Source of the DNA: a virus
Reading direction: 5' to 3' (one strand)
IMG/VR virus record: IMGVR_UViG_3300046500_000066
Span: 1-43,729 of that record
DNA length: 43,729 nucleotides
Made by a program: the position numbers and the translations under genes. The notes beneath the pieces are model-generated. The model was given only the letters and a program-made list of their open reading frames with translations. It ran no database searches and was not told the origin of the DNA. Of the stretch, positions 7,251-43,729 are shown piece by piece. Each line of letters opens with the position of its first letter. Position 1 is the first letter of the stretch.

Positions 7251-7438
7251 TGCATTGCCTTAGTAAGAACAGACTTGGTAGACCCCCAGGCAACCAGCGC
7301 CTCCCGTGCGATTGCACAGCGTTGGCTGATGGTGAGGGGCTGGCCGTTGAGGTGAGTGATGACGCCAGCTAGGGGCAACTGGCGATGTGCTTCGAGGAGT
7401 TCTTGGGTGTGGAATGCGAGGACCTGAGCGGATGTCAC
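7247..7438 (-). CDS. Small hypothetical protein
   Basis: A 63-residue protein starting at GTG (7436-7438) with AGGAGG about 4 bases upstream. It starts in the overlap with the Rz1 stop and ends in an ATGA overlap with the Cys/His-rich gene. The sequence contains TISQRCAIAREALVAWG, which could form a helix-turn-helix-like pair of helices, but this is weak. Function unknown. Confidence 0.65.
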   Translation of the reverse strand: MTSAQVLAFHTQELLEAHRQLPLAGVITHLNGQPLTISQRCAIAREALVAWGSTKSVLTKAMQ

Positions 7439-7770
7439 TTAGCCTCCTGTTGGAACTCTTCAATCCTCGCCTTATCGGCATTGCATGAGTTCAGTTGGTT
7501 GTCATACGCCTTGATGCAGTCCACCAAGTCACCGTTACTTGCGAGCTTGCACAGTGCTGGCTGGGTCCGTGCGGTCAGCGCCTTCGGGATTTGCACCGTC
7601 TTGGTCTCGGTGACAAGCGGAGCTTCTGACTGCGGTGCGCTGGCACAGGCTGTCAACGACAGCAGCAGGCACAGGAGCATCAGCCCAATCACCCACAGCT
7701 CCACTTTGAACAGCGAGCTGTTTGCGTTCTGTAGAGAACTTGGCATTGTCATATCGAATGTGTTGTTCAT
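7435..7770 (-). CDS. Rz1: Outer-membrane spanin (Rz1-like lipoprotein)
   Basis: The 111-residue product has an N-terminal hydrophobic segment ending in a lipobox (LLSLTACAS), so it should be processed to a lipoprotein at that cysteine. It overlaps the Rz gene in another frame, as Rz1 genes typically do. With Rz it would form the spanin complex that fuses inner and outer membranes at the end of lysis of a Gram-negative cell. AAGG lies 6 bases before the ATG at 7768-7770. The mature part is longer than lambda Rz1 and has three cysteines, as in some podoviral o-spanins. Confidence 0.82.
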   Translation of the reverse strand: MNNTFDMTMPSSLQNANSSLFKVELWVIGLMLLCLLLSLTACASAPQSEAPLVTETKTVQIPKALTARTQPALCKLASNGDLVDCIKAYDNQLNSCNADKARIEEFQQEAK

Positions 7771-10587: not shown

Positions 10588-11022
10588 TCAGCTCAGGAAC
10601 AAGTCCCGCTCTGCTTTCCTGCGTCTGGTGAGCCCAGCGAGAACCTTCCCGCCAGCCTTATCCCATCTCAGGAACTCTTCAGATGCCCCTTTGACATCCC
10701 CAGCGTTGAGCTTCTTGAGCAGCGTGGAGCTGCCCAGATTGCCCAGCCCAAGGTTGAACGAGAAGTCCACCAAGGCATCGAACTGGTTACCATTGATTGG
10801 GTAGGTGACTAGCTTAAGAACTCCGTTCTGGAACCGAAGGATGTCAAGCGCGAGGAGCGCCTCAGCCATAGCCTGGGTGATTACCAGCCCCTTATAAACA
10901 TCAGGGCCAGTATGGCCATAGCCGATGGTCCAGACACCCACTGAGTCTTGATACGCGGTCAGCTTGCACCCCTCAAATTGCTTCGTGAGTGCCAAGCCGT
11001 TCTTGCTACATGTGAGGGTCAA
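10588..11022 (-). CDS. Endolysin, GH24 (T4-type) lysozyme
   Basis: The 144-residue protein is a T4-lysozyme-family muramidase. The catalytic triad E17-D26-T32 has the same spacing as T4 E11-D20-T26 (KQFEG, YQDSVGVWTIGYGHT), and FNLGLGNLGSSTLLKKLNAGD is the usual C-terminal block. It cleaves the glycan strands of peptidoglycan. No signal-anchor segment is seen, so a holin should be needed for export. The start is TTG (11020-11022) overlapping the upstream TGA, with no ribosome site, implying coupled translation. The genome also encodes a T7-type amidase (14498-14944). Confidence 0.92.
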   Translation of the reverse strand: MTLTCSKNGLALTKQFEGCKLTAYQDSVGVWTIGYGHTGPDVYKGLVITQAMAEALLALDILRFQNGVLKLVTYPINGNQFDALVDFSFNLGLGNLGSSTLLKKLNAGDVKGASEEFLRWDKAGGKVLAGLTRRRKAERDLFLS

Positions 11023-14427: not shown

Positions 14428-14514
14428 TTAGTAGGTGAGGGAAGTGCGGACTAGCGGGAGGTCGAAGAGCCTGCGGAGCTCCTCGCTCAGCCATGCTTTA
14501 AAGCGGGTGAACAT
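14428..14514 (-). CDS. Possible 28-residue peptide
   Basis: A short frame MFTRFKAWLSEELRRLFDLP...SLTY starts within the amidase end (17-base overlap) with GGAGG 6 bases upstream. It would form a basic amphipathic helix. Support is limited to the good ribosome site and coupling position; it may be chance. Confidence 0.4.
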   Translation of the reverse strand: MFTRFKAWLSEELRRLFDLPLVRTSLTY

Positions 14515-14944
14515 ATCCAGCCTCCGAGAGGAACTGTTTGACATCGAACTGGGGGCAGGTCGTAGCGGCATTAGGGAGGTCCCTGTGGCCAACCACAATT
14601 GCCTGTGGGAACTGCGTGTGGAGGTACGTGAGGAGGGTCAAGAGGCTCTCCCGCTGGTCCTTCGTGAAGTTGTCTGCGGGGTTACCTTCCTGGTCCATAC
14701 CGCCAGCCAAGCAGATGCCGATGGATTGACTATCGAAGCCCGGAGCGTGGGCCCCAGGTTGGTCCAGAGAGCGGCCCGTTTCGATTTGACCTTTGCGGTC
14801 CAGGATGAAGTGGTAGCCCACCCAGAGGCGCCCTTTGAGGCGGTGGATGCGCTCCATGAAGGCCTTGTTGACCTTCTGGCGGGGCTTGGTGTTACTCGAA
14901 TGGACTACGATGTAGACCACCGAGGAGGCGGTCAGGGAGGGCAT
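14498..14944 (-). CDS. gp3.5: N-acetylmuramoyl-L-alanine amidase (gp3.5-like)
   Basis: The 148-residue protein is a T7 lysozyme homologue. The zinc ligands H15, H120 and C130 (VHSS, GHRD, TTCPQFD) and Y44 (VGYHFI) are in place. At the position of T7 K128 there is T128, as in many PGRP-type amidases. T7 gp3.5 both cuts peptidoglycan amide bonds and inhibits the phage RNA polymerase; whether the regulatory role is kept cannot be read from the sequence. The gene order endonuclease I - small gene - amidase is T7-like. The ATG overlaps the preceding stop (TGATG). Confidence 0.93.
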   Translation of the reverse strand: MPSLTASSVVYIVVHSSNTKPRQKVNKAFMERIHRLKGRLWVGYHFILDRKGQIETGRSLDQPGAHAPGFDSQSIGICLAGGMDQEGNPADNFTKDQRESLLTLLTYLHTQFPQAIVVGHRDLPNAATTCPQFDVKQFLSEAGYVHPL

Positions 14945-23450: not shown

Positions 23451-23834
23451 TCAGGCTTTAACGGCGGGCCTTGTCCTGACGAAGCGCCCCAACTGCTCGT
23501 CAATTCTCTCTAACAGAGCCTTACCCTCATCGGTGAGGCTCACAATCTTCCTGCTGTAGTTGGTCGGGTCCTCTGCTGTGGTCACCAGCCCAAGCCCCTG
23601 ACCCATTGCGCTATTACCTCTGCCCAATGCTGCGACACTTCTGGACATCACTGCTTGGCCCAGCCCGGTGGACTCCTGGAGTTCCTTCAGGCTTCGGCCA
23701 GGGTTCGCTGCAATCTCTGCGAACACCACTACCATATTCGGCGGTACATCCTGCTTCTCCATCTTCTCAGCACAGAGATGACGGAAGATTTGTAGGACTT
23801 CTGCTGCTACGTGTAGAGCGGTGGTGCTGCTCAT
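23451..23834 (-). CDS. MarR-like winged-helix regulator
   Basis: The 127-residue protein has the MarR layout: N-terminal dimer helix, a lead helix (PNMVVVFAEIAANPGRSLKE), recognition helix region (TGLGQAVMSRSVAALG, about 56-71), a wing (GLGLVTTAEDPTNYSRKIVSL) and a C-terminal helix TDEGKALLERIDEQLG. It would bind DNA as a dimer. It is the only clear transcription-regulator fold next to the integrase and the best candidate for a lysogeny regulator, since no CI-like repressor is visible; its targets are unknown. GGGGAG lies about 9 bases before the ATG at 23832-23834. A terminator follows. Confidence 0.82.
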   Translation of the reverse strand: MSSTTALHVAAEVLQIFRHLCAEKMEKQDVPPNMVVVFAEIAANPGRSLKELQESTGLGQAVMSRSVAALGRGNSAMGQGLGLVTTAEDPTNYSRKIVSLTDEGKALLERIDEQLGRFVRTRPAVKA

Positions 23835-29418: not shown

Positions 29419-29465
29419 GCCGCTCCTAGGGTTCCACTAGGGGATGCGTATGGGTAAGGGATGGG

Positions 29466-29482
29466 AGCCCCGTAGAGGGGCT
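29466..29482 (-). other. Hairpin between terminase genes
   Basis: AGCCCC (29466-29471) and GGGGCT (29477-29482) form a perfect 6-bp stem with a 5-base loop, in the 75-base gap between small and large terminase genes. No T-run follows. A minus-strand TTCCACTAG element in reverse orientation lies at 29427-29436. Possible processing site. Confidence 0.45.
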
Positions 29483-29493
29483 GTAAAGCGGTC

Positions 29494-29772
29494 TTATCGT
29501 GTTGCTACTTGCGGCTCATCGTCTTCACCTTCACCACCAACGTGGCCAGGGAACGGGAGCACTGCAGCGAGCGACTGGAGGGGCTTGTTGGCTTCCGGGA
29601 TGGCTTCGATGCCGTTGTCCTTGAGGAAGCTCTTGGCTACGTTAGCGAGGGCTGCGAGGCCCTTCAGGTCTTCCGGGTCGGTCTTGCCCTTGAATGCCTT
29701 AATGGCCCCCGTAAGGGTCTCTGCGATGAGCCCGTGGAGTTCGTTGAGGGAGTCCTTGGATGCTTGGCTCAT
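29494..29772 (-). CDS. gp18: Small terminase subunit (gp18-like)
   Basis: A 92-residue protein of T7 DNA maturase A type: helical N-terminal half (SLNELHGLIAETLTGAIKAF), DPEDLKGLAALANVAKSFLK, then a loop and an acidic tail (GGEGEDDEPQ). It recognises concatemer DNA and hands it to the large subunit. It lies between holin and large terminase as in T7 (17.5-18-19), and its ATG overlaps the holin stop (ATGA). Confidence 0.88.
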   Translation of the reverse strand: MSQASKDSLNELHGLIAETLTGAIKAFKGKTDPEDLKGLAALANVAKSFLKDNGIEAIPEANKPLQSLAAVLPFPGHVGGEGEDDEPQVATR

Positions 29773-30062
29773 TGCTTTGCCTCCGCACCCATGCCGAGCT
29801 TCGAGCGCACGAGGTCTTCGAGGAAGTGAGTTCCAAAGATGGCCAGTGCAGCGGATACCCCGCAGACAGCTTCAGTGGGGAGATTGGGGAACAGAGCGAC
29901 AGCAGCGGAGGCCACCATGCTCAGGCCAGAGCCGACAATGACGCGGCCAGCCACGCGCTTGACGTTCATCGGCTCACCGTCAGAGAGCAGCTTGCCGATG
30001 GTGATGGCTGCTCCGATGCCGGCCAGTGTGAGGAGGGTTTTGGTGTGTTCTGCAAGTTGCAT
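29769..30062 (-). CDS. Holin (gp17.5-like)
   Basis: A 97-residue protein with a hydrophobic N-terminal segment (LLTLAGIGAAITIGKLL), a second (VIVGSGLSMVASAAVALF) and a third (VCGVSAALAIFGTHFLEDLV), and a charged C-terminus. Size, membrane pattern and position before the small terminase fit a podoviral holin, which permeabilises the inner membrane to release the lysozyme. AACTTGCAG precedes the start without a strong ribosome site; a hairpin (30091-30115) lies just upstream. Confidence 0.85.
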   Translation of the reverse strand: MQLAEHTKTLLTLAGIGAAITIGKLLSDGEPMNVKRVAGRVIVGSGLSMVASAAVALFPNLPTEAVCGVSAALAIFGTHFLEDLVRSKLGMGAEAKQ

Positions 30063-30090
30063 GAGGTTGCGCGCTAAAGAGAGGGAGATG

Positions 30091-30115
30091 GCCCCAGTAG
30101 AGAACCTACCGGGGC
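30091..30115 (-). terminator. Hairpin between tail fibre and holin genes
   Basis: A perfect 10-bp stem (30106-30115 with 30091-30100, one G-U pair) with a GTTCT loop is followed by CATCTCCCTCTCTTT on the minus strand. No clean T-run, so it may be a partial terminator or processing site lowering holin and terminase expression. Confidence 0.6.
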
Positions 30116-30128
30116 GCTGAGGTGTTGC

Positions 30129-32237: not shown

Positions 32238-32271
32238 TGCGTACCTTATAGCTTGGAGGTATTGAGGGGTG

Positions 32272-32601
32272 TCAGGCGCGGGGCTGAATGAGCCACTTGG
32301 CAAGCTGAGGGTTGTCTTGAAGGACCGCGTAGAGTCCTGTTGCTGCGGAGCGCACGAACTGCTCCTCCACATCGGGAGGAAGGAGCACGGCCATCTGAAA
32401 GAGAATCGCGTGGAGAATCTCGTGGAGGACCGTATCGGCTTCTTCGCTGGCCGGTAGGTCCACTTGGATGTCTATACGTTGCCTACCGGGCCAGTGCAGG
32501 CCGTAGGCGTTCTGCATCTCGTCCGTTGGTTTGTAGTTGATGCTGTGGGTTTTCCCCAGAACACGAACGCTCTGGGGTCTTGCTTCCTTCTTAACTGCCA
32601 C
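32272..32601 (-). CDS. Small HExxH (zincin-like) protein
   Basis: A 109-residue protein containing HEILH at 60-64 (TVLHEILHAILF), the zinc-metalloprotease motif in a helix, after a beta-rich N-terminus (RIDIQVDLPA). A GTG start at 32599-32601 lies just after the gp16 stop. The third zinc ligand is not obvious and the protein is very small. It sits between the internal virion protein gp16 and the tail fibre, so processing or folding of a virion protein is conceivable. The motif is seen; the function is inference. Confidence 0.72.
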   Translation of the reverse strand: MAVKKEARPQSVRVLGKTHSINYKPTDEMQNAYGLHWPGRQRIDIQVDLPASEEADTVLHEILHAILFQMAVLLPPDVEEQFVRSAATGLYAVLQDNPQLAKWLIQPRA

Positions 32602-32602
32602 C

Positions 32603-35600
32603 TTAGTTAGTCGGGTGCGGTTTGTACTTCGGGAAGTGGCTGCCGATCATATCGTTCACGTTGCGCATGATGTACAGGTTGCCGCCAGGGACAGCCCCAA
32701 GTGCATCGCGCATCTCCTTCTCGGTGATAGTGTTGGTGCTGAAGGGGTTAATAGTGCTGCCCACGACTTGCCCCAAGGTAGCCAACCGCGCACCTTCGAT
32801 CATCGAGGGGGTCAGGAAGATGTTCCGGTTGTCCGTGTTGGCGGTGCCGTTAGCGAAGAGCGACTGCCCCCCGCTGAGCGGTTGATACGCGGTGTCCATC
32901 ACTTGCGGGAGGATGCCGAGCACGGCCATGCGACTCACAGCGCCCAAGGCGATGGCCGAGGGGGAGAGCCGCTGGGCCAGCTTATCGGGGTCGTGGGAGT
33001 AGTTGATGGAGTTCTGCAGGGAATACTCAAGAGCAGCGCCCACGAACGAGTACATCCATTGGACAGCCGTGGTTGAGTCTCGGTAGTGGATGCCCTTGAG
33101 GAACTGCTTGGCATGGCCCACCAGCACGAACGTCTTGAGCTCAGAGAAAATCTTGCCCACGGTGGTGTGCATGAACGGGATGGTCTCGCCCAAGTCGTGA
33201 TCCTGAATAGCATCACGCACCTCACGAGACAGCAGCAGTTGGAACTTGCTGTAAGTCTCGGGGGCCTCACGGCTCCACTTCTCGTAGTCCACGTTGTCCA
33301 CCTTGTTGCCGTCCATCGTGGTGTACTTCTTGAGTGCCGCGTGGACATCAGGCTGGTCATCCGTGCCCACACCGTTGTGCGTCATACGCTCACGCTGCTT
33401 CGCAGTCATCTCCTTGTGCCCTACGGCGAAGTCGATGTGCTTCTGAATGACCATCCGAGCGGACATCATGCGGGTGGCTGAGGTGGCTGCTGAGTTGCCC
33501 GAGAGGTGGTCTACTGCGTGGGAGAGCTTGCCCGAGAAGTTCTCGAAGCCCGTGAGCCCGCGATCATAGGAGTAGTCCGTAATCTCGTGCTGACGTGCAT
33601 AGGCAGACACATGCTCCAGACCGTGGCCCGTGAGGTGATGAATGGCTGCCTCAAGGCCCCCAGGTGCAGCATGGCCAGCCTGTAAGCTGCGGATGATCTT
33701 GGAGAACGTGGGGACATGGAGCATGAAGGCGCGCATCGAGGTGAGGCCAATGGCGTTCTTCATTTCCAGCGCAGCAGGGATACCCAACTGCCCCAGCATG
33801 ACGGAGCGCGTCCAGGCACGCATGGCACCCAGAACGCGGTCAGCCCGGTTGAAACTCTGGGTGGACATAGGGCGGCCAGTGATGTTGTCGTAGACATCCT
33901 GCATCATCTGCTTCACCCGGTTGTATTTGCCAGAGCCGGAAGTCATCGCGTTTTCCGTGTGGAACTGCTCAGCCTCACGCATCTTCGCCATGAACTGAGC
34001 GCGGGATTTGATGCCGACCTCAGCGAGAGCCAAGTGACCGCCCATAGAGTTCATGTAGCGGCCAGCGAGGAGCCGTGAGTCATTCTCAAAGAGGTCCGAG
34101 ATGCGGAACACTGAGCCATCCTTCATGTGCTCTGCGTGGTTCTCGTTGAGCGCCAAGCGAGCCTTGAGGGGCCCCGCCTGTCCAGCATCGAGGTCCTTAC
34201 TGCCCCTACGGTCAAACATCAGGTCAACCAGCGAGTTAATCTCGTGGTCCTTAAGGCCAGAGTTGGAGAGCTCCTCCCGGAGTGTCACCATGTCCTTGGC
34301 GTAGAGGTGGATGTCCTGCATGGCATGGCTGAACTCCAGCTTCATCACGGCATCCATGAAGCCCTTAGCCTTGGCCGTAGCGGCATCTCCAGTTACCCCT
34401 TCGAGCTTGATAGCGCGGCCAATGACCTCATACATCTGGTCCTTGTACTTGGCGAACGCTTCACGGATGTTGTCCTGCTTCCATACCCGGTTCACGTACT
34501 GGGGGTTATCCGGGATGTGCTCAGCGCCTTCCACCCCAGCAGCTTCCATCTTCCGGCGCATCTCAGTGTAGAAGTCCTTCTGAGCCTTGGCCCCGCGTTC
34601 AAGCTGTGCAGCAATGTCGGGGTTCGCCTTGAGTACGTCAGTGTCCCCACGGGCTACCCTGGAGATGTCCGAGTAGAACTGGTCCACAGCAGCGCGCTTC
34701 TTGAAGAAGTTCATCCCACGGACCTTAGCGGCCTCATCGAATGCCCTACGAGCTTCCAGGTGGAAACCGCCTTCGAGGGTTCTGCGGTACTGTGACTTGA
34801 GCTCTGAGGCGGTCCATCCCTGTGCTTCGTGGGCATCGTTGCCGATGGCATCCTTGACCAGCTTGTTCCCGAGGAAGCGGAACACGGGATTCTCAGACTG
34901 GTTGAAGTGGGTGTAGAAGTCCCAGCGGATTGGGACCTTTCCCAAGTGGGTGAGGGCTGTGGGCTGGTCCGCAAGGGAGGCAAGGCGCTCGTTAGGGTCC
35001 GCACGGGCTGCACCTACGGAGTCCGCCATGCCGAACACTGAGCGGTCTGCGGTGTTCTCATAGGCTGGTGCCTCAGAAAGCGGGGTGGTGGCCTTAGCTT
35101 CACGCCCATCCCGGAATGCGCGCAGTGCCATCGCATCAGGAGAGACTGTTCCCAGTTTCTCCCCGCCCTCAATGACAGCGCCATGCTGCTCCGCGAGGTC
35201 ATACAGGTAGGTCCCGATGCCCCTGCGTCTGTAGTCCTTCCGCACCTCTGAATCTAGGGCACGGTCGTTGGGGGAGAACTGAACGTGCCCGATTTCCTCG
35301 CCAGCTTGGTTTTTGGCCACAAACTCCGCAGGGTCCATCTCACCGGGGGTATAGCCAGGCGCTACCGCCCCAGAGCCCTTGACTGGCCTCTTTTCAATGG
35401 TGATGACCTCACCGCCTTTGATAGTGAACGGATGTGAGTCGCCGTTTACCATCATAGGAAGTTCCCGAGGAGCCCCGCTGGAATCGCCACCATCAGGGCT
35501 CTGTGAATCAGCAGCGGGAGCCTCATGTGTCTGCTCAGCGCGCCCCGCCTCCACATCCATAGCCTTCTTTAGGTTCTCCGTGTAGGCGTGCAGATTGGCT

Positions 35601-36415
35601 TCCTCATGGGGCTCCAGCGGTTCCCCTGCTTGCTGCTTGCGGAGGGACTCGATGGCGTTAGCCTCCTGCATAGCCGTCTGGGATACCTTGGCCTGCTCGT
35701 GAGCGTGGAGACCAACGAAGGGGGCAGCGAAGGCCATCGAGGTGAGCCCTGCGGTGAGGACCCCCATCTTGTCATCTTCGAAGTTGTAGTTCTGCCGGAG
35801 CTTCTCAGTGCCAGCCCCGAGGATGCCTGCAGTTCCCAAGCCGGTAGCGATGGAGCGAGCACGGGAAACCGTAGCGGCAACCTCAGCCCCCCGAGCGAGG
35901 AGTGAAGTGCCGCCTGATGCGGCCATTGCCACGAGGTTGATGGGGTCCACAATGCCGAACGCCATGCCCGCAGCGAATCGGCCTACGTTGCCCTTAGTGC
36001 CCAGTGTGGAGAGGTCTTGCAGGTCCTTCTGCTTCTGCAGGATGTTCTGCTTGATCCATGCTGCTTGCCCTGCGGAGGTGGCTTGGGAGAACGCACCTTG
36101 GAACTCAGGCCACACCCCGTCATTCAGGTCCTTAGTTACGGACTCGTCATAGGGGTTGTAGGTCGGGTCCGGTGCAAGTTGAGCACCAGCGTAGTGGTCA
36201 ATGAGGCCGGGAATCCATGAGTCCTGCCGCCACATCGCCCCCAGATAGTCCTTCGAGGTGAGCCCATAGGATGCCTCCTGCTTCTGGGTGTCCTGCGTTA
36301 CTGCGTCAACTGGCGGGGCCGTCTGTTGAGTAACTGGTGCCGCTGAGGGCGCGGTGTCTACGAGTTGCGAATTGTCAGCGAGAGCCGACTGAAGCTGTGG
36401 TGTAGGGGTTGCCAT
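32603..36415 (-). CDS. gp16: Internal virion / DNA ejection protein (gp16-like)
   Basis: The 1270-residue protein matches T7 gp16 in place and length (1318 in T7) and in its long helical C-terminal part (KYNRVKQMMQDVYDNITGRP, FVLVGHAKQFLKGIHYR). It would extend the ejection channel during DNA entry. The N-terminus lacks the lytic transglycosylase domain of T7 gp16 and is Pro/Gln/Ala-rich instead. Residues 361-436 look GNAT-like (GEEIGHVQFSP, RKDYRRRGIGTYLYD). ATG at 36413-36415 overlaps the HNH gene stop (TGATG); the preceding TTG codon is less likely. Confidence 0.92.
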   Translation of the reverse strand: MATPTPQLQSALADNSQLVDTAPSAAPVTQQTAPPVDAVTQDTQKQEASYGLTSKDYLGAMWRQDSWIPGLIDHYAGAQLAPDPTYNPYDESVTKDLNDGVWPEFQGAFSQATSAGQAAWIKQNILQKQKDLQDLSTLGTKGNVGRFAAGMAFGIVDPINLVAMAASGGTSLLARGAEVAATVSRARSIATGLGTAGILGAGTEKLRQNYNFEDDKMGVLTAGLTSMAFAAPFVGLHAHEQAKVSQTAMQEANAIESLRKQQAGEPLEPHEEANLHAYTENLKKAMDVEAGRAEQTHEAPAADSQSPDGGDSSGAPRELPMMVNGDSHPFTIKGGEVITIEKRPVKGSGAVAPGYTPGEMDPAEFVAKNQAGEEIGHVQFSPNDRALDSEVRKDYRRRGIGTYLYDLAEQHGAVIEGGEKLGTVSPDAMALRAFRDGREAKATTPLSEAPAYENTADRSVFGMADSVGAARADPNERLASLADQPTALTHLGKVPIRWDFYTHFNQSENPVFRFLGNKLVKDAIGNDAHEAQGWTASELKSQYRRTLEGGFHLEARRAFDEAAKVRGMNFFKKRAAVDQFYSDISRVARGDTDVLKANPDIAAQLERGAKAQKDFYTEMRRKMEAAGVEGAEHIPDNPQYVNRVWKQDNIREAFAKYKDQMYEVIGRAIKLEGVTGDAATAKAKGFMDAVMKLEFSHAMQDIHLYAKDMVTLREELSNSGLKDHEINSLVDLMFDRRGSKDLDAGQAGPLKARLALNENHAEHMKDGSVFRISDLFENDSRLLAGRYMNSMGGHLALAEVGIKSRAQFMAKMREAEQFHTENAMTSGSGKYNRVKQMMQDVYDNITGRPMSTQSFNRADRVLGAMRAWTRSVMLGQLGIPAALEMKNAIGLTSMRAFMLHVPTFSKIIRSLQAGHAAPGGLEAAIHHLTGHGLEHVSAYARQHEITDYSYDRGLTGFENFSGKLSHAVDHLSGNSAATSATRMMSARMVIQKHIDFAVGHKEMTAKQRERMTHNGVGTDDQPDVHAALKKYTTMDGNKVDNVDYEKWSREAPETYSKFQLLLSREVRDAIQDHDLGETIPFMHTTVGKIFSELKTFVLVGHAKQFLKGIHYRDSTTAVQWMYSFVGAALEYSLQNSINYSHDPDKLAQRLSPSAIALGAVSRMAVLGILPQVMDTAYQPLSGGQSLFANGTANTDNRNIFLTPSMIEGARLATLGQVVGSTINPFSTNTITEKEMRDALGAVPGGNLYIMRNVNDMIGSHFPKYKPHPTN

Positions 36416-36879
36416 CAAGCCTGCCTAGAGATTTCAGTAACGTGTTCCCACGCTTTGCCATTTTTAATCGCACTCACTGTGGCTTGGGAGATGCCGAACT
36501 GCGCAGCGAGGTCCGCTTGGAGGTGCTGGCTGGCGTATATCTCCAGCACATCCTCATCGGCCAGCTTCGCGTTCCAGTGCGTGGAGCCCCGCTGGTTCCG
36601 CCCCTTAGCGAGCATGTCTGCCACGTTATCCGCGTTAGTGCCGCTGAACAGGTGGTCGGGATTGACACACTCACGGTTGTCACAGGTGTGACATATCTGC
36701 TCGCCCGGTTCCCCTTTGAAAGCCCTGAAGGAGAGTCGGTGGGCGTATGCGGTCTTGCCTCCCACCTTGGCAACTCCGTATCCGGAGGCGGCCTTGGCCT
36801 TACTCCAGACCCAGCACCCAGAGTCAGGGTCAACCTTCACTCTATCTTCGATGTACTGCTGAATATTAAGATTAGGCAT
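36415..36879 (-). CDS. HNH homing endonuclease with HTH
   Basis: The 154-residue protein has an HNH domain: AHR (46-48), H64 with CDN (66-68), and ECVNPDHL with N73 and H76, followed by GTNADNVADMLAKGR. A C-terminal HTH (LQADLAAQFGISQATVSAIK, about 119-138) would position it on DNA. Free-standing homing endonucleases of this build are common in phages. It lies between gp15 and gp16, ending in a one-base overlap with gp16, so it may target that neighbourhood. Confidence 0.9.
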   Translation of the reverse strand: MPNLNIQQYIEDRVKVDPDSGCWVWSKAKAASGYGVAKVGGKTAYAHRLSFRAFKGEPGEQICHTCDNRECVNPDHLFSGTNADNVADMLAKGRNQRGSTHWNAKLADEDVLEIYASQHLQADLAAQFGISQATVSAIKNGKAWEHVTEISRQA

Positions 36880-36899
36880 GAGCCCTTCCTGTTAGGTAG

Positions 36900-39872
36900 T
36901 TATTGTGCCGTTCGGCTGGCCTCCAGTAATCCCTGGCTCCAGGAGGAGGTGCCATTAATCATCAGGTTGCGCAGCTTGTTTCTACGAACGTCTTCTTGCC
37001 GGTTGCCGTCCTTATCTGAGTAGGTAACCTTAAGGGCGTCCTGGAAGCCTGCTAGGTCCTTATTGGCCAGTGCGGTGATGGCCTTCTTGAATTGGCCAAC
37101 ATCTCCAACTTGATAGGCGACATCGGCCAGTGCAGCCTTCTGCCCCGCAGAGACCATAGTCCATAGGCCAGGATGTGCGGCCTCCACAGCTTCCTTCGCT
37201 CGCTGCTCATAGCGGGGGGCGGTGACTTCGAGAAGGCGCGCGGCCTGCTCAGGAGTGATCTGCACCTTCCCTGACTTGATCCCCTCCAGGGAGCTCATTG
37301 GAATCTGGGCGCGCCTAAAGTCCTCAGCGATGTTGTCAGCGTTCGCGTTGAGTGAGTACCCATAGCCAATGTTCTTTCCGGACTTCGGGTTAGGGTCATC
37401 AGTTGCTTTCAGTACCAGCCCCTCACCCATAGCAATCATGGATGCCGTTAGGTTGCCCGAGCCAAGGAATTGGTCAGCCTGCTTAACCTGCATCGCACTG
37501 CCCTGCCCAGTGAGGCGGGAGCCGTTCAGGCCCGAGAAGTCCGACTTGTCATTGAAGAACCACCCGTTACCCAGCTTGGGGTCCGCAGGGAGATTGAAGG
37601 CGTTGCTGAGGGCGCCGTCAAAGGTCTTCTTCTGCACGTCCTTAATCTTTCCCAGCACGGAGTCATTCACGAGACCCAAGCTGCGGGCCTTAGCGAGCAC
37701 CGTGGAGTTGTCGATGAGGTCTTGGGATGTGGCAGTGCCCTTGTTCAGCTTGTCCGTCAGGGCAGCCATGCCAGCCTGCTCATCAGGGGAGAACGCCTTG
37801 GTGTAGCTGTGGTCCTTGATGATCTGGTCGAAGGAGACATTGGGATTGGCCGTGCCCACGTACTGGCCATTGCGGAACAGGCCAAGCTGATAAGAGCCGT
37901 CCTTGTAACCCGTGAGCGCCACCTTCAGGTCATCACTGCCGTACTTCGCCTGCATCTTCTCTGTGTACGCTGAGAGGGCCTCGGCGGTCTGGTCACTGGC
38001 GCGTTGCGGAGGAACCTCCACGTCAATCTTGTTCACCGGGTCAAACACATGGGTGCTCTTGTACTGCTCCTGCAGCCATGCCTTAGCTTGGTCCGGGGTG
38101 GCATTAGGGTTGCGCTTGTAGTAGTCGTTAGCCTGAACCACTGCCCACCCTTCGGCAGCCTGGGTGTTCTCAGGAGTTCCACCGAAGAGCCTGCCCACCA
38201 GCGGAATCTTGTTGGCGAAGTCCACGGTAATGTCCTTCACCGTCTTGGCCACTTCAGCCTTCCACTTGGGGTCCTGCATGCGGAGCTCAGCGGCCTTCTG
38301 TGCTTCCGGGGAGATTGAGCGGTAGGCGTTCTGATAGGCCGTTGCCGCGTCTACTCCCGAGTCAACCTGCGACTTGTAGGAGCTAAAGAGTGTCTGCGCC
38401 TTCTCATCAAAGTAAGCCGAGCGGATTTGGTCAGGTAGACCACCATACAGCGCTGCAGCAGTGTTAAATTGAGACGAAGGTTGACCGTCTTTCGTGGGGA
38501 GTGCATTTACTGTTCCATCTACGAGGCCCTTGAGCTTCGGGTTAGGGATGTCCGAGCGGCCCGAGCGGGCGGTGGCTTGGACAATGGTTTGGAGGGCCAC
38601 TTGGACATCAGGGCTCTTCGTTAGGTCCCCGCCTTGGGTACTCGTTGCAGCCCCCATGAGAACACCCACGGGTCCCTGCAGCTTCGCATCCATGCCCTTG
38701 CTGTAGGCATCCTTGGAGAGTCCCCAGCCTTGGCCGTTGTTGATGGCATTGATGGCAGCGAGGCCATCCTGTGCCTTGTCTGCGATGCCCTGAAGGTGGT
38801 TGTAGTAGCTCGATGCCTCAGCCCCAGTCTTGAACATTCCGAGGGGGCTGATGTGGTGCGCGATGTCGTCCATCGAGGGCATCACACCATTGGCAGCATT
38901 GTCCTCATAACCCTGCCGGGTCTTGAAGAAGTCAACCTGCTGGCCCTGCTCGATGCGCTTGTTCTGCTCCTCCTCAGCCTTGCTCCGCATCCGGGTAACT
39001 TCGGACTGGAGCTTGGGGTTCATCTGCATCGGAGTGAGGCCGGTATTCGGGTCCTTCTGGTCAAACACATCGAACAACTCGGGGCGGCCACCTGCCTTGC
39101 GTGACAGGTCTGTGATCTTGTCCAGTGCACTGTCCCAGAGTTCTGGGCGAGTCATCGTGCCGAGCTGACCACGGAGAGGCTCTACGGTGGAGATGATCCC
39201 CTTGTAGATGTCAGCGGGGTTCGCTGTGGGGCTCATCACGGAATCCAAGGCTGCCGAGATGTTGCCGTTGGCGGTCTCCTTGAGCCGCGTGAACTGAACC
39301 TGAGCGTAGTCCGTGCGGATGTGCTTCGAGGTGTCAGCAACGCTCTTCGCCACCTGCTCAACGATAGCGGGGTCTGAGAGGCCAGCCGTGTGCTGCGCTA
39401 CCTGCTCATGAAGGAACTGCTCCGGGTCGAAGCCATCCTTGTTCTTGTTCTCAGCGTAAGCCGAGAGGATGTCAGTCTGGACCTGCGAGCCAATCTTCAG
39501 GCCCACCGAATTCCGGTAGCCCGCAGCGAATGTCTGGGAGAACGCTGGGTCAACCTTATAGCTATCTTCGGGAGGAGGGACTTTGATGCCACCGGTCTGT
39601 GCATCAGTGAGGCTTGCATCAGCGAGTTCTCCCTGAGCGGTGCCAGCCTTGAACGCATCGCTTGCGGCAGCCTGCTCTTTCAACTGCGTGTACCGCTGGA
39701 GCTCAGGGTTGAACGCCTTCAGGCCATCAACAAGGCCCATGAGGGTGGGGTCATTCTGCCCCGCACCCGCGTAGGTGTCGATTGTTCGCTCTTGGGGCTG
39801 GAAGGTCGCTGCCTGCTGGCCGGGGGAGCCCTGACCGCGCTGGGTGATTTGCTGCGTGTTGTTCGGTGGCAT
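36900..39872 (-). CDS. gp15: Internal virion protein with C-terminal lysozyme-like domain (gp15-like)
   Basis: The 990-residue protein corresponds in place to T7 gp15 (747 residues) but is larger. The body is helical and Ala/Gln-rich. The last 180 residues look like a GH24/T4-lysozyme-like domain: MGEGLVLKATDD (E817, D825/D826), NIGYGYS at 834-840, ITPEQAARLLEVTAPRYEQ and QKAALADVAYQVGDVGQF. In T7 the peptidoglycan-cutting domain is at the N-terminus of gp16; here it seems to have moved to gp15. GAGG lies 6 bases before the ATG. Confidence 0.88.
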   Translation of the reverse strand: MPPNNTQQITQRGQGSPGQQAATFQPQERTIDTYAGAGQNDPTLMGLVDGLKAFNPELQRYTQLKEQAAASDAFKAGTAQGELADASLTDAQTGGIKVPPPEDSYKVDPAFSQTFAAGYRNSVGLKIGSQVQTDILSAYAENKNKDGFDPEQFLHEQVAQHTAGLSDPAIVEQVAKSVADTSKHIRTDYAQVQFTRLKETANGNISAALDSVMSPTANPADIYKGIISTVEPLRGQLGTMTRPELWDSALDKITDLSRKAGGRPELFDVFDQKDPNTGLTPMQMNPKLQSEVTRMRSKAEEEQNKRIEQGQQVDFFKTRQGYEDNAANGVMPSMDDIAHHISPLGMFKTGAEASSYYNHLQGIADKAQDGLAAINAINNGQGWGLSKDAYSKGMDAKLQGPVGVLMGAATSTQGGDLTKSPDVQVALQTIVQATARSGRSDIPNPKLKGLVDGTVNALPTKDGQPSSQFNTAAALYGGLPDQIRSAYFDEKAQTLFSSYKSQVDSGVDAATAYQNAYRSISPEAQKAAELRMQDPKWKAEVAKTVKDITVDFANKIPLVGRLFGGTPENTQAAEGWAVVQANDYYKRNPNATPDQAKAWLQEQYKSTHVFDPVNKIDVEVPPQRASDQTAEALSAYTEKMQAKYGSDDLKVALTGYKDGSYQLGLFRNGQYVGTANPNVSFDQIIKDHSYTKAFSPDEQAGMAALTDKLNKGTATSQDLIDNSTVLAKARSLGLVNDSVLGKIKDVQKKTFDGALSNAFNLPADPKLGNGWFFNDKSDFSGLNGSRLTGQGSAMQVKQADQFLGSGNLTASMIAMGEGLVLKATDDPNPKSGKNIGYGYSLNANADNIAEDFRRAQIPMSSLEGIKSGKVQITPEQAARLLEVTAPRYEQRAKEAVEAAHPGLWTMVSAGQKAALADVAYQVGDVGQFKKAITALANKDLAGFQDALKVTYSDKDGNRQEDVRRNKLRNLMINGTSSWSQGLLEASRTAQ

Positions 39873-39896
39873 TCCTATCCTCAGATAGTTTATGGT

Positions 39897-40454
39897 TTAA
39901 GTGGTGCCTTGGGCTGCTGTAACCTTTCCGGCCGCCAGCATGTTGGCCCGTTGGTATCCCGTGTAGGAGCTCATGGCTGACCCAGCAATTTGAAGCCCAG
40001 TGCCGATTAGGCTAGGCTGCTGGATACTCGCCATACGCTGGGAGGCTTGTGAAGCGGCCCCCCGAGCTTGGTTAGCAAGGTCCCGTTGCTGCGACGCTGC
40101 GTTAGCTTCCATCGCTGCAATGTCAGTTCCAGCATTGAAGTTGGCCTCGTTAGTGACTCGATCATTCGAGCCCCCTCCGTTGGTCCCTGACTCGGCAGCT
40201 AGGGCCTGTAGGTGGCCGGTCTCAATCATCGCCTGTCGCGCCCTTTCGGACATCTGCGAGGAGGCTGCTTGAGAGGCTTCTACCTCCTGATTCTTGATCT
40301 GCAGAACTTGCTGGTCATACGCAGACTGAGCAGCATCGGTTTGGCGATGCGCAGCCTGGCTCTGCATTACGTATGCACTAGCAGCACTGGCGGCTGAGAC
40401 AGCCATAGAGATGGCCAGCGCTGTGGTGGTAGAGATTGTTACTGGCTCGCACAT
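39897..40454 (-). CDS. gp14: Internal virion protein B (gp14-like)
   Basis: The 185-residue, Ala/Gln/Ser-rich protein begins MCEPVTISTTTALAISMAVS: a hydrophobic N-terminal segment, then a long helical region (MQSQAAHRQTDAAQSAYDQQ), as in T7 gp14. That protein enters the outer membrane as part of the ejection channel. It overlaps the gp13 end by 16 bases. The position between gp13 and gp15 agrees with T7. Confidence 0.92.
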   Translation of the reverse strand: MCEPVTISTTTALAISMAVSAASAASAYVMQSQAAHRQTDAAQSAYDQQVLQIKNQEVEASQAASSQMSERARQAMIETGHLQALAAESGTNGGGSNDRVTNEANFNAGTDIAAMEANAASQQRDLANQARGAASQASQRMASIQQPSLIGTGLQIAGSAMSSYTGYQRANMLAAGKVTAAQGTT

Positions 40455-40903
40455 GGCGGCTCCCGGTGAAAGAAGTGGAATGGGGCTTTGCCAGCCCCGA
40501 AGTCCGGTACTAGCTCACCAATCTTGAAGCCCAGCTTGCGGAGCCAGGATATGGAGCGGAGGTTCTCCGCGTGGACAAAGTTGAACAGAATGGAGTACCG
40601 CTTCAGAAGGCCGTCAACCCACTTCCGCCCATCCTGAACAAGCGCCTTGGGGTGGCGGTAGACCGCTGGAGTAGCGAGCATCCATACGCCACCCATGCCT
40701 TCAACGTTCGCTACCCCGTAGATTCCCAGTAGAGTCCCATCAGGCTCCTCCGCAACCCACGCCTCCTCAGAGGCAGCGATAGAGCGCAGAAGAACCTGAA
40801 CGGTGTCATCTCCGGTGGCCAATAGAATCTCCCCACGGTCACACTCACGGAGGAGTGGGAAGAGCGCATAGCAGTCCGCTTCAGTTGCTTTACGGATAAT
40901 CAC
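40439..40903 (-). CDS. gp13: gp13-like protein with GNAT fold
   Basis: The 154-residue protein resembles T7 gp13 (internal virion protein A) and has an acetyltransferase-like pattern: MIIRKATEADCYALFPLLRE, VWMLATPAVYRHPKALVQDG, and a C-terminal block VHAENLRSISWLRKLGFKIG. Members of this family sit in T7 heads or help assembly; enzymatic activity is uncertain. The ATG overlaps the gp12 stop (ATGA). Confidence 0.85.
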   Translation of the reverse strand: MIIRKATEADCYALFPLLRECDRGEILLATGDDTVQVLLRSIAASEEAWVAEEPDGTLLGIYGVANVEGMGGVWMLATPAVYRHPKALVQDGRKWVDGLLKRYSILFNFVHAENLRSISWLRKLGFKIGELVPDFGAGKAPFHFFHREPPCASQ

Positions 40904-43209
40904 ATGCGCCTCCCGAAGGTGACGAACTCTGCATCCCAGCCTGCCGACTGGAATACACAGGGGAGATAGGAGTCGTTGATGAGGTCAATGCGCACCCCAA
41001 GATTGGCCGTGAGGACCGGGAAGGTGAACGTACCGGACTGGATGGAGGGAACCCCCAAGGTGGCTGATGCTGTCCCGAGGGCCTTGCCGGTGAACCTGTA
41101 GGTGTACGTGTCCCGCGCCTTCGGCTGTACTTCCACGTAGAAGTATCCGCTATCGGTGTAGTCCAGGAAGAACCTACGCAGCTTGAGCTTGCCGTTGGTG
41201 ATGGCCACTTGGTTCTGGTCCTTCGCGTACTGCTCGGAGAACCTGTAGCGCATCGTGTAGTTCTGCCCGAAGAACACAGGGCCGCCCGTGTAGTTTCCGG
41301 AAGCGGTGATTGTGAACGTGTCCACCACTGTGTAGGGAACTACCTTGCCGACCTTCCCGGTGAATGTGGTCCCCAATACCAGCGAGTGGTCTGCCTGCGC
41401 TGCATAGGGGAGCGTGAACGTGGTCAGATTGGTGGAGGCGTTATAAGTCCCTGTGATCTCCACGCGATGATCCAGCAGGACATCAAAGCCCATCCCACCT
41501 GCTGACAGGTCAGGCTGCAGGTCCATCGCCTCCAGATAGGTGCCATCAGGGCGGTTGACAATGAAGTAGCACTTATTGTTAATGAACTCAGCACCAAGCA
41601 CCTGGGTGTCACTGGCGAACACAAACTTAAACCAAGCGGACTGTGACTTAGTGTTCCCAGACCAGAAGAACTTGTAGACGTACAGGGCGTTCGGCTCACT
41701 ACGGCACAGCGCGAAGATGACATCCTCTGAGGAACTGGAAGCCATCCTGTAGAGTCCTTCGGGGACATACGTGGGAACATGCGCTGTAACGTCAGTTGCA
41801 TCGTTAGTCAGCGTAGTGGCATCAACGAAGTACTCCCTGAGCCCCGTATGCTGGCCTGCAGTGACTCCGAAGTACACCGCTTGGCCGATACCAACAGGGC
41901 GTGAATCGGTGCCGCTATCGAACTCCGTAGCGACATCAGCCCGCACACTCTTGGGGGTTAGTGCATCGCCACCTGTCAACTGGAACTGGGTCTGGTCAGA
42001 GAACAGAAGCAGGCTCTTATCGAAGGGCACCGCGAACTTCAGCAGGGAAACCTTGTTGGTCCCCACGTTGGTGTCAATGGGGTCCGTATCGAGGACTGCA
42101 GTGGCACTCTTCGCCCAGAAGTTGTAATACTCCCCGGAGCGGGACATACACACGTTCTCATCAGCCAGGAAGCCGAGGCGCCCACGGAAGTAGAAGATGT
42201 CGGTGATCTTGCGGCCCACGAAGGATGGCGGGGGGTTACTCGTGTCATCTCCAACTAGGCGAGAGCCCCACGCAACACTGTTGAAAACAAAGCTGCCATC
42301 CGACTGGCGCACCAGCTTCCAGGGCATTGTGGCCCCGGAGAAGCTATTGACCAGCCCAGGCTTGGTGGTCTCAAGCCACTTGGACCCATCCCACGTCACG
42401 TAATAGTCGCTGGTGCCCCCTGCCGGGTCACCTGAGATATGAATGACCCAACCAGTAGGCCCAGTGGGGGGAAGCCGCGAGAAGCTGGAGACCGCTACGT
42501 TTAGGTCCAGGGTCGCAGTGTTGGCGTACCCATCATGGATGCCTGCGGAGCTAATGGCGGTGCCGTTGAGCTTGAGGACCTGGATGATGGAGGTGTTAGG
42601 GAGGACCACTGCCGTGTAGCCTGAGCCGAGCAGGGCAGCCAACTGTGAGGCCAGCGTTGTGGCAATCGTCACGGAGTCTGCGGTGTCCCCCGTGTTGACG
42701 CTGGTGTACGAGCCATCCACATTGATAGCGTAGTTGATGTGCGGCTCAGCCAGCAGGACAGCGAAGTAGGCCACATTGATCGGATTAGATGGACTCACGG
42801 GGCCCTGAGCAACCGTTACGGACTTGTTCAGTACAAACGTGTAGTCAGCCACCGTGACCATCTCGAAGTCACTGAGGGGGGAACTGGAGGCTAGGTAAGC
42901 GCTGCCTCCGGGAAAGGTCACAGTGCGGGGGGTGCCATCCAGCAGGCTGAACACCTGGATGTTCCCGTTGGTCGTGAACACTGCGTAGCGCTCGGTCGTG
43001 TCCCGATTGATGATATGGACATAAGCGTTGCTGATGACAGACCGTGAGAGCAGCGCAAGGTATGTCAGTGGGGGCCTCTTGCGCAGCCCAGTGGCAATCG
43101 TTGGGTAGGCGTTCTCACACACTTCAGCCTGAGTGTCGTGCCGCAGCGTGGGTGGCTGCTGGCTGACCCCATTGAACAGGCTGGGGATACTCTTGTTGAT
43201 GAGGGTCAT
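40900..43209 (-). CDS. gp12: Tail tubular protein B (gp12-like)
   Basis: The 769-residue protein is T7 gp12-type, the tail nozzle. The N-terminus (MTLINKSIPSLFNGVSQQPP, then AYPTIATGLRKRPP) is diagnostic of the family, and the body is beta-rich with FYFRGRLGFLADENV in the middle. It binds gp11 and the tail fibres. The start at 43207-43209 is chosen because it overlaps the gp11 stop (TAATG); the in-frame extension upstream lies inside gp11. T7 gp12 is 794 residues, similar in size. Confidence 0.95.
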   Translation of the reverse strand: MTLINKSIPSLFNGVSQQPPTLRHDTQAEVCENAYPTIATGLRKRPPLTYLALLSRSVISNAYVHIINRDTTERYAVFTTNGNIQVFSLLDGTPRTVTFPGGSAYLASSSPLSDFEMVTVADYTFVLNKSVTVAQGPVSPSNPINVAYFAVLLAEPHINYAINVDGSYTSVNTGDTADSVTIATTLASQLAALLGSGYTAVVLPNTSIIQVLKLNGTAISSAGIHDGYANTATLDLNVAVSSFSRLPPTGPTGWVIHISGDPAGGTSDYYVTWDGSKWLETTKPGLVNSFSGATMPWKLVRQSDGSFVFNSVAWGSRLVGDDTSNPPPSFVGRKITDIFYFRGRLGFLADENVCMSRSGEYYNFWAKSATAVLDTDPIDTNVGTNKVSLLKFAVPFDKSLLLFSDQTQFQLTGGDALTPKSVRADVATEFDSGTDSRPVGIGQAVYFGVTAGQHTGLREYFVDATTLTNDATDVTAHVPTYVPEGLYRMASSSSEDVIFALCRSEPNALYVYKFFWSGNTKSQSAWFKFVFASDTQVLGAEFINNKCYFIVNRPDGTYLEAMDLQPDLSAGGMGFDVLLDHRVEITGTYNASTNLTTFTLPYAAQADHSLVLGTTFTGKVGKVVPYTVVDTFTITASGNYTGGPVFFGQNYTMRYRFSEQYAKDQNQVAITNGKLKLRRFFLDYTDSGYFYVEVQPKARDTYTYRFTGKALGTASATLGVPSIQSGTFTFPVLTANLGVRIDLINDSYLPCVFQSAGWDAEFVTFGRRM

Positions 43210-43729
43210 TAGCGCGTGGTCACCGCTGCCTCGGGTCGCAGCCAAACATCAGCCACGCTGAAGCTGTCATAGAACATGTTGTAATCGCCATCGTCACCTT
43301 CTGCATCCTTCAGCGCGATAAGGGCCTTGAGCTCGTCATCCTCAGTGAGTTTGTCCAGAGTTTCCGAACTGAGGTTGTTTCCTTGGAAAGACCGGGCAGC
43401 GCACACAGCGATGTACTGGCGCGCAGTTTGGGGAAGCTCATCCCAGTCCAGGAAGAGAACCACCGTGGCCTTGAGGTCGGAGGTGAAGAGGTAGGTATGG
43501 TTGGCCTTGTCGTAGAGCTTCGAGCCTCGGAGGGCAACTTGGGCGCTCGATACGGTTCGGTCAATGGAGACCTTGAGGGCGCTTAGGGGGGCCGTGATGG
43601 TTCCATCGGCTGCCCGTGAGAGGGGGAACTGCTCTTCGGTGTTGAAGGCCCATCCCGTGGATTGAACGGTGCGGCTGAATTCGAGGAGCTTGGCTCGGGC
43701 ACTGGCTACATCTGCGAGGCCGGTATTGC
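43209..43729 (-). CDS. gp11: Tail tubular protein A (gp11-like), 3' part
   Basis: This is the C-terminal portion of the gene whose beginning lies at 1-438. The frame enters from the right edge (43729) and stops at 43209-43211 with ...AAVTTR, overlapping the gp12 ATG. The part 43374-43729 duplicates 1-356. The unique C-terminal end contains DKLTEDDELKALIAL and DYNMFYDSFSVADVWL, typical gp11 ending. Confidence 0.92.
   Translation of the reverse strand, partial: NTGLADVASARAKLLEFSRTVQSTGWAFNTEEQFPLSRAADGTITAPLSALKVSIDRTVSSAQVALRGSKLYDKANHTYLFTSDLKATVVLFLDWDELPQTARQYIAVCAARSFQGNNLSSETLDKLTEDDELKALIALKDAEGDDGDYNMFYDSFSVADVWLRPEAAVTTR
43374..43729. repeat. Contig-end overlap, copy 2
   Basis: Matches 1-356 with five single-base differences, all synonymous in gp11. 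See copy 1. Confidence 0.95.

Follow-up and report, generated by a model that had tools for sequence, protein, structure and literature searches.

The last ~190 residues of the gp15-position protein of a soil phage very probably form a virion-associated muramidase of the T4-lysozyme/pesticin superfamily, which would open the peptidoglycan at entry. We infer its catalysis, packaging, ejection and site of action. The phage, IMG/VR record IMGVR_UViG_3300046500_000066, is a relative of T7. Its whole record of 43,729 nucleotides was analysed and is here called the window. The first and the last 356 bases agree at 351 positions, which implies that the record is probably near complete. It contains a T7-like gene set in T7 order, i.e., a single-subunit RNA polymerase, a T7-type terminase, nozzle, gp13, gp14, gp15 and gp16. 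The genes of interest are:

39897..40454, minus strand: gp14 homologue (PF24072, E 3.1e-24)
36900..39872, minus strand: gp15-position ejection (internal virion) protein of 990 residues with a predicted C-terminal lysozyme domain, placed by the order nozzle-gp13-gp14-gp15-gp16, which is the same in relatives
37029..37424, minus strand: the PF00959 match within it, residues 817-948 (modelled fold ~803-985), from Pfam and the predicted structure
32603..36415, minus strand: gp16-position ejection protein lacking an N-terminal transglycosylase and having a GNAT-like insert (Pfam, PHROG)

The gp15 frame starts with ATG and has the position and length given in the original prediction; the motif NIGYGYS corresponds to residues 834-840 and the stretch QKAALADVAYQVGD to residues 911-924. 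It was identified as gp15 by its place in the gene order and by a profile match over part of its length. A search of the PHROGs profiles left gp15 without a match, and a profile comparison with T7 gp15 revealed no similarity (0.2%).

The genome also contains an integrase gene. A tRNA-like sequence (window 22192-22266, RF00005, 35.5 bits) overlaps its 3' end and is perhaps the attachment site. Directly upstream of the integrase lies a gene for an HRDC/MarR-like regulator (23451..23834; both matches are under the Pfam cut-offs), and a regulator gene beside the integrase is also the arrangement of temperate T7-like phages. That such phages can have a MarR-like regulator and an integrase is already known from PMC10134795.

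That gp15 ends in a T4-type lysozyme, as originally proposed, is borne out by profile, fold and residues. In Pfam, PF00959 (Phage_lysozyme) matches residues 817-948 with 24.6 bits at a cut-off of 22.3 (E 3.4e-5), and the family also matches the gp15 homologue of Burkholderia sp. D-99. An AlphaFold2 model of the domain, built from 14 sequences, reached a pLDDT of 86.5 and a pTM of 0.85. With this model Foldseek found the tail lysozyme gp5 of T4 and T4 lysozyme itself as best matches (probability 1.00, best E 7.7e-4), and in VIA-align the model matched T4 lysozyme as well as muramidases of phages and prophages with Z scores of 11.7-12.8 over 140-162 residues. The T4-lysozyme fold is, thus, a confident prediction. 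An earlier model from 10 close sequences had a pLDDT of 55, and its structure matches, pesticin among them, can be taken as a hint only. The pesticin domain PF16754 itself did not match gp15 at E<=1 in Pfam, though it is near by hhalign (see below).

Two other identities were considered and discarded. A single-sequence search of the PDB suggested an exopolyphosphatase (E ~0.003); we regard this match as helices that resemble each other by chance, since the profile search of the PDB favours T4 gp5-type lysozymes as top matches (E ~0.01). Descent from the phage's own endolysin was rejected in view of 5.6% in hhalign and 14 bits in BLASTP.

The residues presumed to catalyse the reaction were inspected in an alignment of 14 domains, with relatives from IMG/VR and one bacterial genome. 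Loss of catalytic residues was looked for; E817, D826, N834 and Y839 turned out to be invariant in all 14. The critical codons are:

37422..37424, minus strand: E817, candidate catalytic acid, invariant in 14/14
37395..37397, minus strand: D826, candidate catalytic Asp, invariant in 14/14
37371..37373, minus strand: N834, at the Thr position of classical GH24; Asn in 14/14 and also in the SP6-type phage F5M1D

The original prediction had named E817 and left the choice between D825 and D826. In T4 lysozyme, D20 lies nine residues past E11. D826 shows the same +9 spacing from E817, whereas D825 is unique to the window and replaced by P, Q or A in the other alignment rows shown; D826 is therefore the candidate catalytic Asp. 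The full E-D-T triad of classical GH24 enzymes is not present, the third position being Asn834 in 14/14, and the His of the GxGH motif is replaced by Tyr, again in 14/14. By its residues, then, the domain is not a classical full-triad GH24 enzyme, yet likely works like one.

Selection has treated the domain differently from the remainder of gp15. Identity of the lysozyme domain versus the rest of the protein is 90% versus 82% in the relative L003 and 72% versus 53% in L024. The dN/dS ratio is 0.04-0.16 over the last 210 codons versus 0.15-0.40 over residues 1-780, as obtained from the computable pairs, several of which are near saturation at synonymous sites. The lysozyme domain is under strong purifying selection.

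Of course, a lysozyme fold could persist without catalysis, e.g., in a domain that merely caps gp15 as a structural element or by binding glycan. With Asn for the third catalytic Thr and Tyr for His throughout the alignment, the activity could indeed be weak or absent. Such a cap is, however, quite improbable in view of the invariant E817 and D826 and the low dN/dS. Also, the third residue varies among gp15-borne lysozymes: it is Ser in SP6 and K1-5, Thr in Era103 and BD1, and Asn in F5M1D, and SP6 and K1-5 are listed as having virion lysozymes in PMC5380687. Finally, the ejection proteins did not yield a second hydrolase. Should the domain prove active, Asn would be tolerated at the usual position of the catalytic Thr.

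The original prediction further held that the gp16 homologue lacks the N-terminal transglycosylase of T7, and this was confirmed. Pfam did not detect an SLT domain on gp16 (E<=1), the PHROG gp16 profile aligned only from profile position 185, and a six-frame search of the whole record for PF01464 remained without a match, while 8 of 14 control genomes were positive. The analogous six-frame search for PF00959 recovered the separate endolysin only and missed the weaker gp15 domain; negatives of this kind are not absolute. Within the sensitivity of the profiles, the transglycosylase is missing from this phage. The GNAT acetyltransferase-like insert of gp16 comprises residues 365-421 (window 35156-35326, PF00583, 21.9 bits). 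The surrounding residues ~300-450 are highly variable: the region is shorter in L004, contains another insert in L056, L058 and L060, and in L006 has a GNAT-like stretch recognised by eye.

A literal move of the domain from gp16 to gp15, as had been suggested, did not take place: it belongs to a different family from the SLT of T7, with 0.5% in hhalign. Replacement of the entry enzyme is likely, given the lysozyme on gp15, the gp16 without SLT and the precedents of SP6, K1-5 and phiKMV. To call the new enzyme unrelated may overstate the case, because T4-type lysozymes and SLT are both usually placed in a wider lysozyme-like superfamily.

The presumed function can be envisaged as follows. The lysozyme domain would enter the cell along with the ejection proteins and there open the peptidoglycan around the periplasmic tube of gp15, a job that in T7 would fall to the N-terminal transglycosylase of gp16. 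The latter is likewise presumed to act at DNA entry, but belongs to another enzyme family (PF01464) and sits on another protein and at its other end. A lysozyme at the C-terminus of gp15 may be delivered near the same place as a hydrolase at the start of gp16. For lysis the phage possesses a separate endolysin, holin and spanin:

10588..11022, minus strand: separate endolysin, start codon uncertain (PF00959, 170 bits)
14498..14944, minus strand: Amidase_2 protein (Pfam), which we take to be T7 gp3.5-like
29769..30062, minus strand: holin (PF04550)
7435..7770, minus strand: Rz1-like outer spanin (PF23793)

That the gp15 domain, being of the muramidase type, doubles as the lysis endolysin is hardly credible when the genome has this full equipment and the domain forms the C-terminal part of a large ejection protein.

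The arrangement as such is not new. We scanned gp15 and gp16 of 17 reference T7-like phages with Pfam. PF00959 on gp15 and no SLT on gp16 was found in seven (SP6, K1-5, Era103, BD1, Pm5460, F5M1D and LKA1), the reverse, an SLT on gp16 and no hydrolase on gp15, in two (T7 and RHEph21), and an intervening protein with a pesticin domain in two more (S46-C10 and HTVC120P). In the remaining six (phiKMV, Lo5R7ANS, Kurepalu-1, Pasto, HTVC019P and P-SSP7) Pfam did not detect a hydrolase on either protein. Not one of the 17 had both hydrolases. JG068, of which gp16 alone was scanned, has an SLT there. The Pfam negatives include false ones and do not prove absence, since gp36 of phiKMV, though undetected, is a lysozyme by assay according to PMC5380687. 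The same source lists this arrangement in SP6, K1-5 and phiKMV as virion-associated lysozyme. PMC8954989, a review, expresses surprise at the lysozymes on gp15 of K1E and K1-5 and infers from them that a switch of the hydrolase domain to the gp15 homologue is possible; a slight similarity of the SP6 gp36 C-terminus to lysozyme is mentioned in PMC4837284. The lysozyme-on-gp15 arrangement is, thus, already established, and the window group is a further case: its gp15 lies between gp14 and gp16, ends in a lysozyme and is accompanied by a gp16 without SLT. The literature searches did not bring up biochemical work on this group. Nor did they bring up a paper that links Autographiviridae to a lysozyme domain, Burkholderia and an integrase, which does not prove absence from print.

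The known cases differ in detail. Gp36 of SP6 and its counterparts (K1-5 gp38, Era103, BD1, Pm5460 and F5M1D) share with the window the gp15 position, the C-terminal PF00959 and the gp16 without SLT; unlike the window protein, they have an extra tail of ~75 residues past the lysozyme, His after GYG and Ser, Thr or Asn as third residue, and their gp15 bodies are only weakly similar (43% in hhalign). Gp36 of phiKMV and gp47 of LKA1 again combine the gp15 position with a C-terminal lysozyme; in LKA1 PF00959 matches with 29.5 bits, and gp48 is devoid of SLT. The body of phiKMV gp36, however, has no detectable similarity to that of the window (0.3%), and Ser and His stand where the window has Asn and Tyr. 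In the Pelagibacter phages HTVC120P and S46-C10 the pesticin-domain protein carries the nearest domain (91.5%), is likewise encoded at the gene 15/16 junction and is accompanied by related parts of gp16; here, in contrast, the domain is N-terminal on a protein of its own, encoded between gp15 and a short gp16. Such in-between proteins have PF16754 at their N-terminus with 133-135 bits (L048 3927-5786 and L049 5096-7177), a third position for an entry enzyme. The gp15-position protein of L048 (1919-3925; AP013545) is annotated as tryptophanyl-tRNA synthetase, an annotation without support from Pfam. In the phages examined, a detected hydrolase was always encoded at the gene 15/16 junction, be it as the last part of gp15 or as the first part of gp16 or of an extra protein in between.

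Where the window's domain came from is more difficult to tell. The motif D-P-N-P-x-x-G-x-N-I-G-Y-G-Y occurs in 15 IMG/VR contigs, every one already a member of this gp15 family, which therefore looks closed within IMG/VR, as far as such a motif goes. Gp15 of the window group did not match any of 50,697 phage records, nor did a distant gp15 used as query match plasmids and phages. With tblastn, the best phage matches of the domain were SP6-type gp36 C-termini (E 0.05-0.07). By hhalign, the domain ranks nearest to the pesticin type of Pelagibacter phages (91.5%); SP6-type gp36 comes second (65%) and the C-terminal domain of phiKMV gp36, compared as one sequence, third (21%), ahead of the endolysin of the phage itself (5.6%) and the T7 transglycosylase (0.5%). 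Being single comparisons with shallow profiles, these figures give a rank order, not a phylogeny. The gp15 body, by the same method, is nearest to gp55 of Mesorhizobium phage Lo5R7ANS (94.5% over residues 14-241), a protein of 744 residues in which Pfam did not find a lysozyme. The gp16 proteins of Lo5R7ANS and the window agree from window residue 448 onward (99.4%). Rhizobium phage RHEph21, among the nearest gp16 relatives, has an SLT at the start of gp16; the corresponding region of Lo5R7ANS is 29% identical to it, yet does not match Pfam.

Because the gp15 body is nearest to that of Lo5R7ANS, which has no lysozyme match in Pfam, and because RHEph21 has its SLT on gp16, these comparisons favour a separate gain of the lysozyme in this phage lineage. 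Alternatively, the gp15 lysozyme could have been inherited from a single ancient fusion shared with SP6 and phiKMV. The tblastn matches to SP6-type C-termini and the hhalign values for SP6-type proteins, 65% for the domain and 43% for full gp15, are in line with such a fusion. Nevertheless it appears doubtful, as the domain is nearer to the Pelagibacter phage pesticin domain, the body is nearest to a protein without lysozyme match, the close gp16 relative RHEph21 has an SLT on gp16, and phiKMV gp15 shows no similarity (0.3%).

Relatives of the gp15-lysozyme gene also reside in integrated elements of Burkholderia sp. D-99 (L024 1568-13517) and of the Burkholderiaceae genome G297 (L028 8262-14651). 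The latter element has gp13 and gp14 alongside and a frameshifted gp15. Both contain integrases and a common downstream trio of two small ORFs and a polymerase-like ORF of ~420 residues; the polymerase-like gene is also found, together with a resolvase, in other elements that lack gp15. Terminase and portal of the window did not match either bacterial genome, and gp16 did not match across G001 or within the 20-kb region around the element in G297. These elements may be phage satellites or decayed prophages. In two other relatives group I introns (RF00028, 71.7 and 84.1 bits) interrupt the major capsid gene past codon 53 (L004 3516-4146 and L058 881-1487); the capsid gene of the window is free of an intron.

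A further observation, beyond the original prediction, concerns the gene 15/16 junction:

36415..36879, minus strand: free-standing gene for an HNH endonuclease, an insertion between gp15 and gp16 (PF13392, 35.8 bits; phrog_59, E 2e-33)
35912..37881, no strand assigned: diverged tract around the HNH gene relative to the relative L002, from a mismatch comparison

None of 15 relatives has the HNH gene at this junction. Window and L002 do not differ by a single mismatch in 29602-35911 and in 37882-41088. Within gp15 the mismatches number 0 in nucleotides 1-1991, 1 at 1992, 8 in 2001-2340 and 126 in 2341-2973; 126 of 135 thus fall into the last 633 nucleotides, i.e., the lysozyme domain. Towards gp16, 28 mismatches were counted, all at most 494 nucleotides from the junction, and none across the next ~3300. 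L002 and L012 originate from two metagenomes and do not differ anywhere in 8624 compared nucleotides, the tract included. The lysozyme-domain DNA of L002 and L012 is 88-89% identical to that of L003 and L004, while the window reaches 78-80% to all four and is therefore the odd one (rows L056, L057, L058 and L060, out of register by one codon and ~25% identical, were left out of this comparison). The replaced domain is still 92% identical at the protein level, so that the event amounts to the swap of one allele for another, with the enzyme family so far unchanged.

It seems that the end of the gp15 gene was recently swapped along with the adjacent HNH gene. In its simplest reading, this looks like homing of the HNH gene with co-conversion of its flanks, including the lysozyme module, from an unsampled donor. 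The features of homing that were found are the HNH gene, its presence in the window and absence from 15/15 relatives, and the co-converted flanks. Could the HNH gene and the diverged tract simply stem from two strains joined into a chimera during assembly? The window was assembled from a metagenome, and its HNH gene is not found at the junction of any relative. The mismatches, however, thin out from the insertion both ways (126, 8, 1 and 0 in gp15; 28 within 494 nucleotides and then 0 in gp16), the reading frames are intact across the tract, and L002 equals L012 over the same region in two metagenomes. We therefore consider a chimera unlikely. Further differences between window and L002 are clustered in 41089-43602 (48 mismatches) and 28777-29601 (33), beside long mismatch-free stretches; they are perhaps other recent exchange tracts.

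Exchange at phage nuclease genes is a known theme, treated in 'Nuclease genes occupy boundaries of genetic exchange between bacteriophages' (PMC10448857); PMC2988022 is listed under this theme as well. Like the free-standing homing endonucleases with co-conversion treated there, the HNH gene of the window adjoins an essential gene and is flanked by the exchanged tract. In contrast to those, the tract here spans the lytic domain of an ejection protein, and the endonuclease is a putative one known from sequence. In the literature searched we did not find a description of a nuclease-linked exchange that replaces the lytic module of an ejection protein.

One may speculate, at rather long odds, that in T7-like phages free-standing homing endonucleases recurrently exchange peptidoglycan-hydrolase modules by co-conversion at the gene 15/16 junction. 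If true, this would explain why entry enzymes of different families are attached to the C-terminus of gp15 or the N-terminus of gp16 or lie on a protein in between, all at the same point of the genome, and the window would be an exchange caught in the act, so far the replacement of one lysozyme allele by another of the same family. The swap of entry enzymes among ejection proteins has been known from the comparison of distant phages, and a mechanism has been lacking. With the window group comes one more case, probably from another lineage, and the near-identical pair of phages that differ by an HNH gene and a replaced lysozyme module offers a testable route by which such modules may be exchanged.
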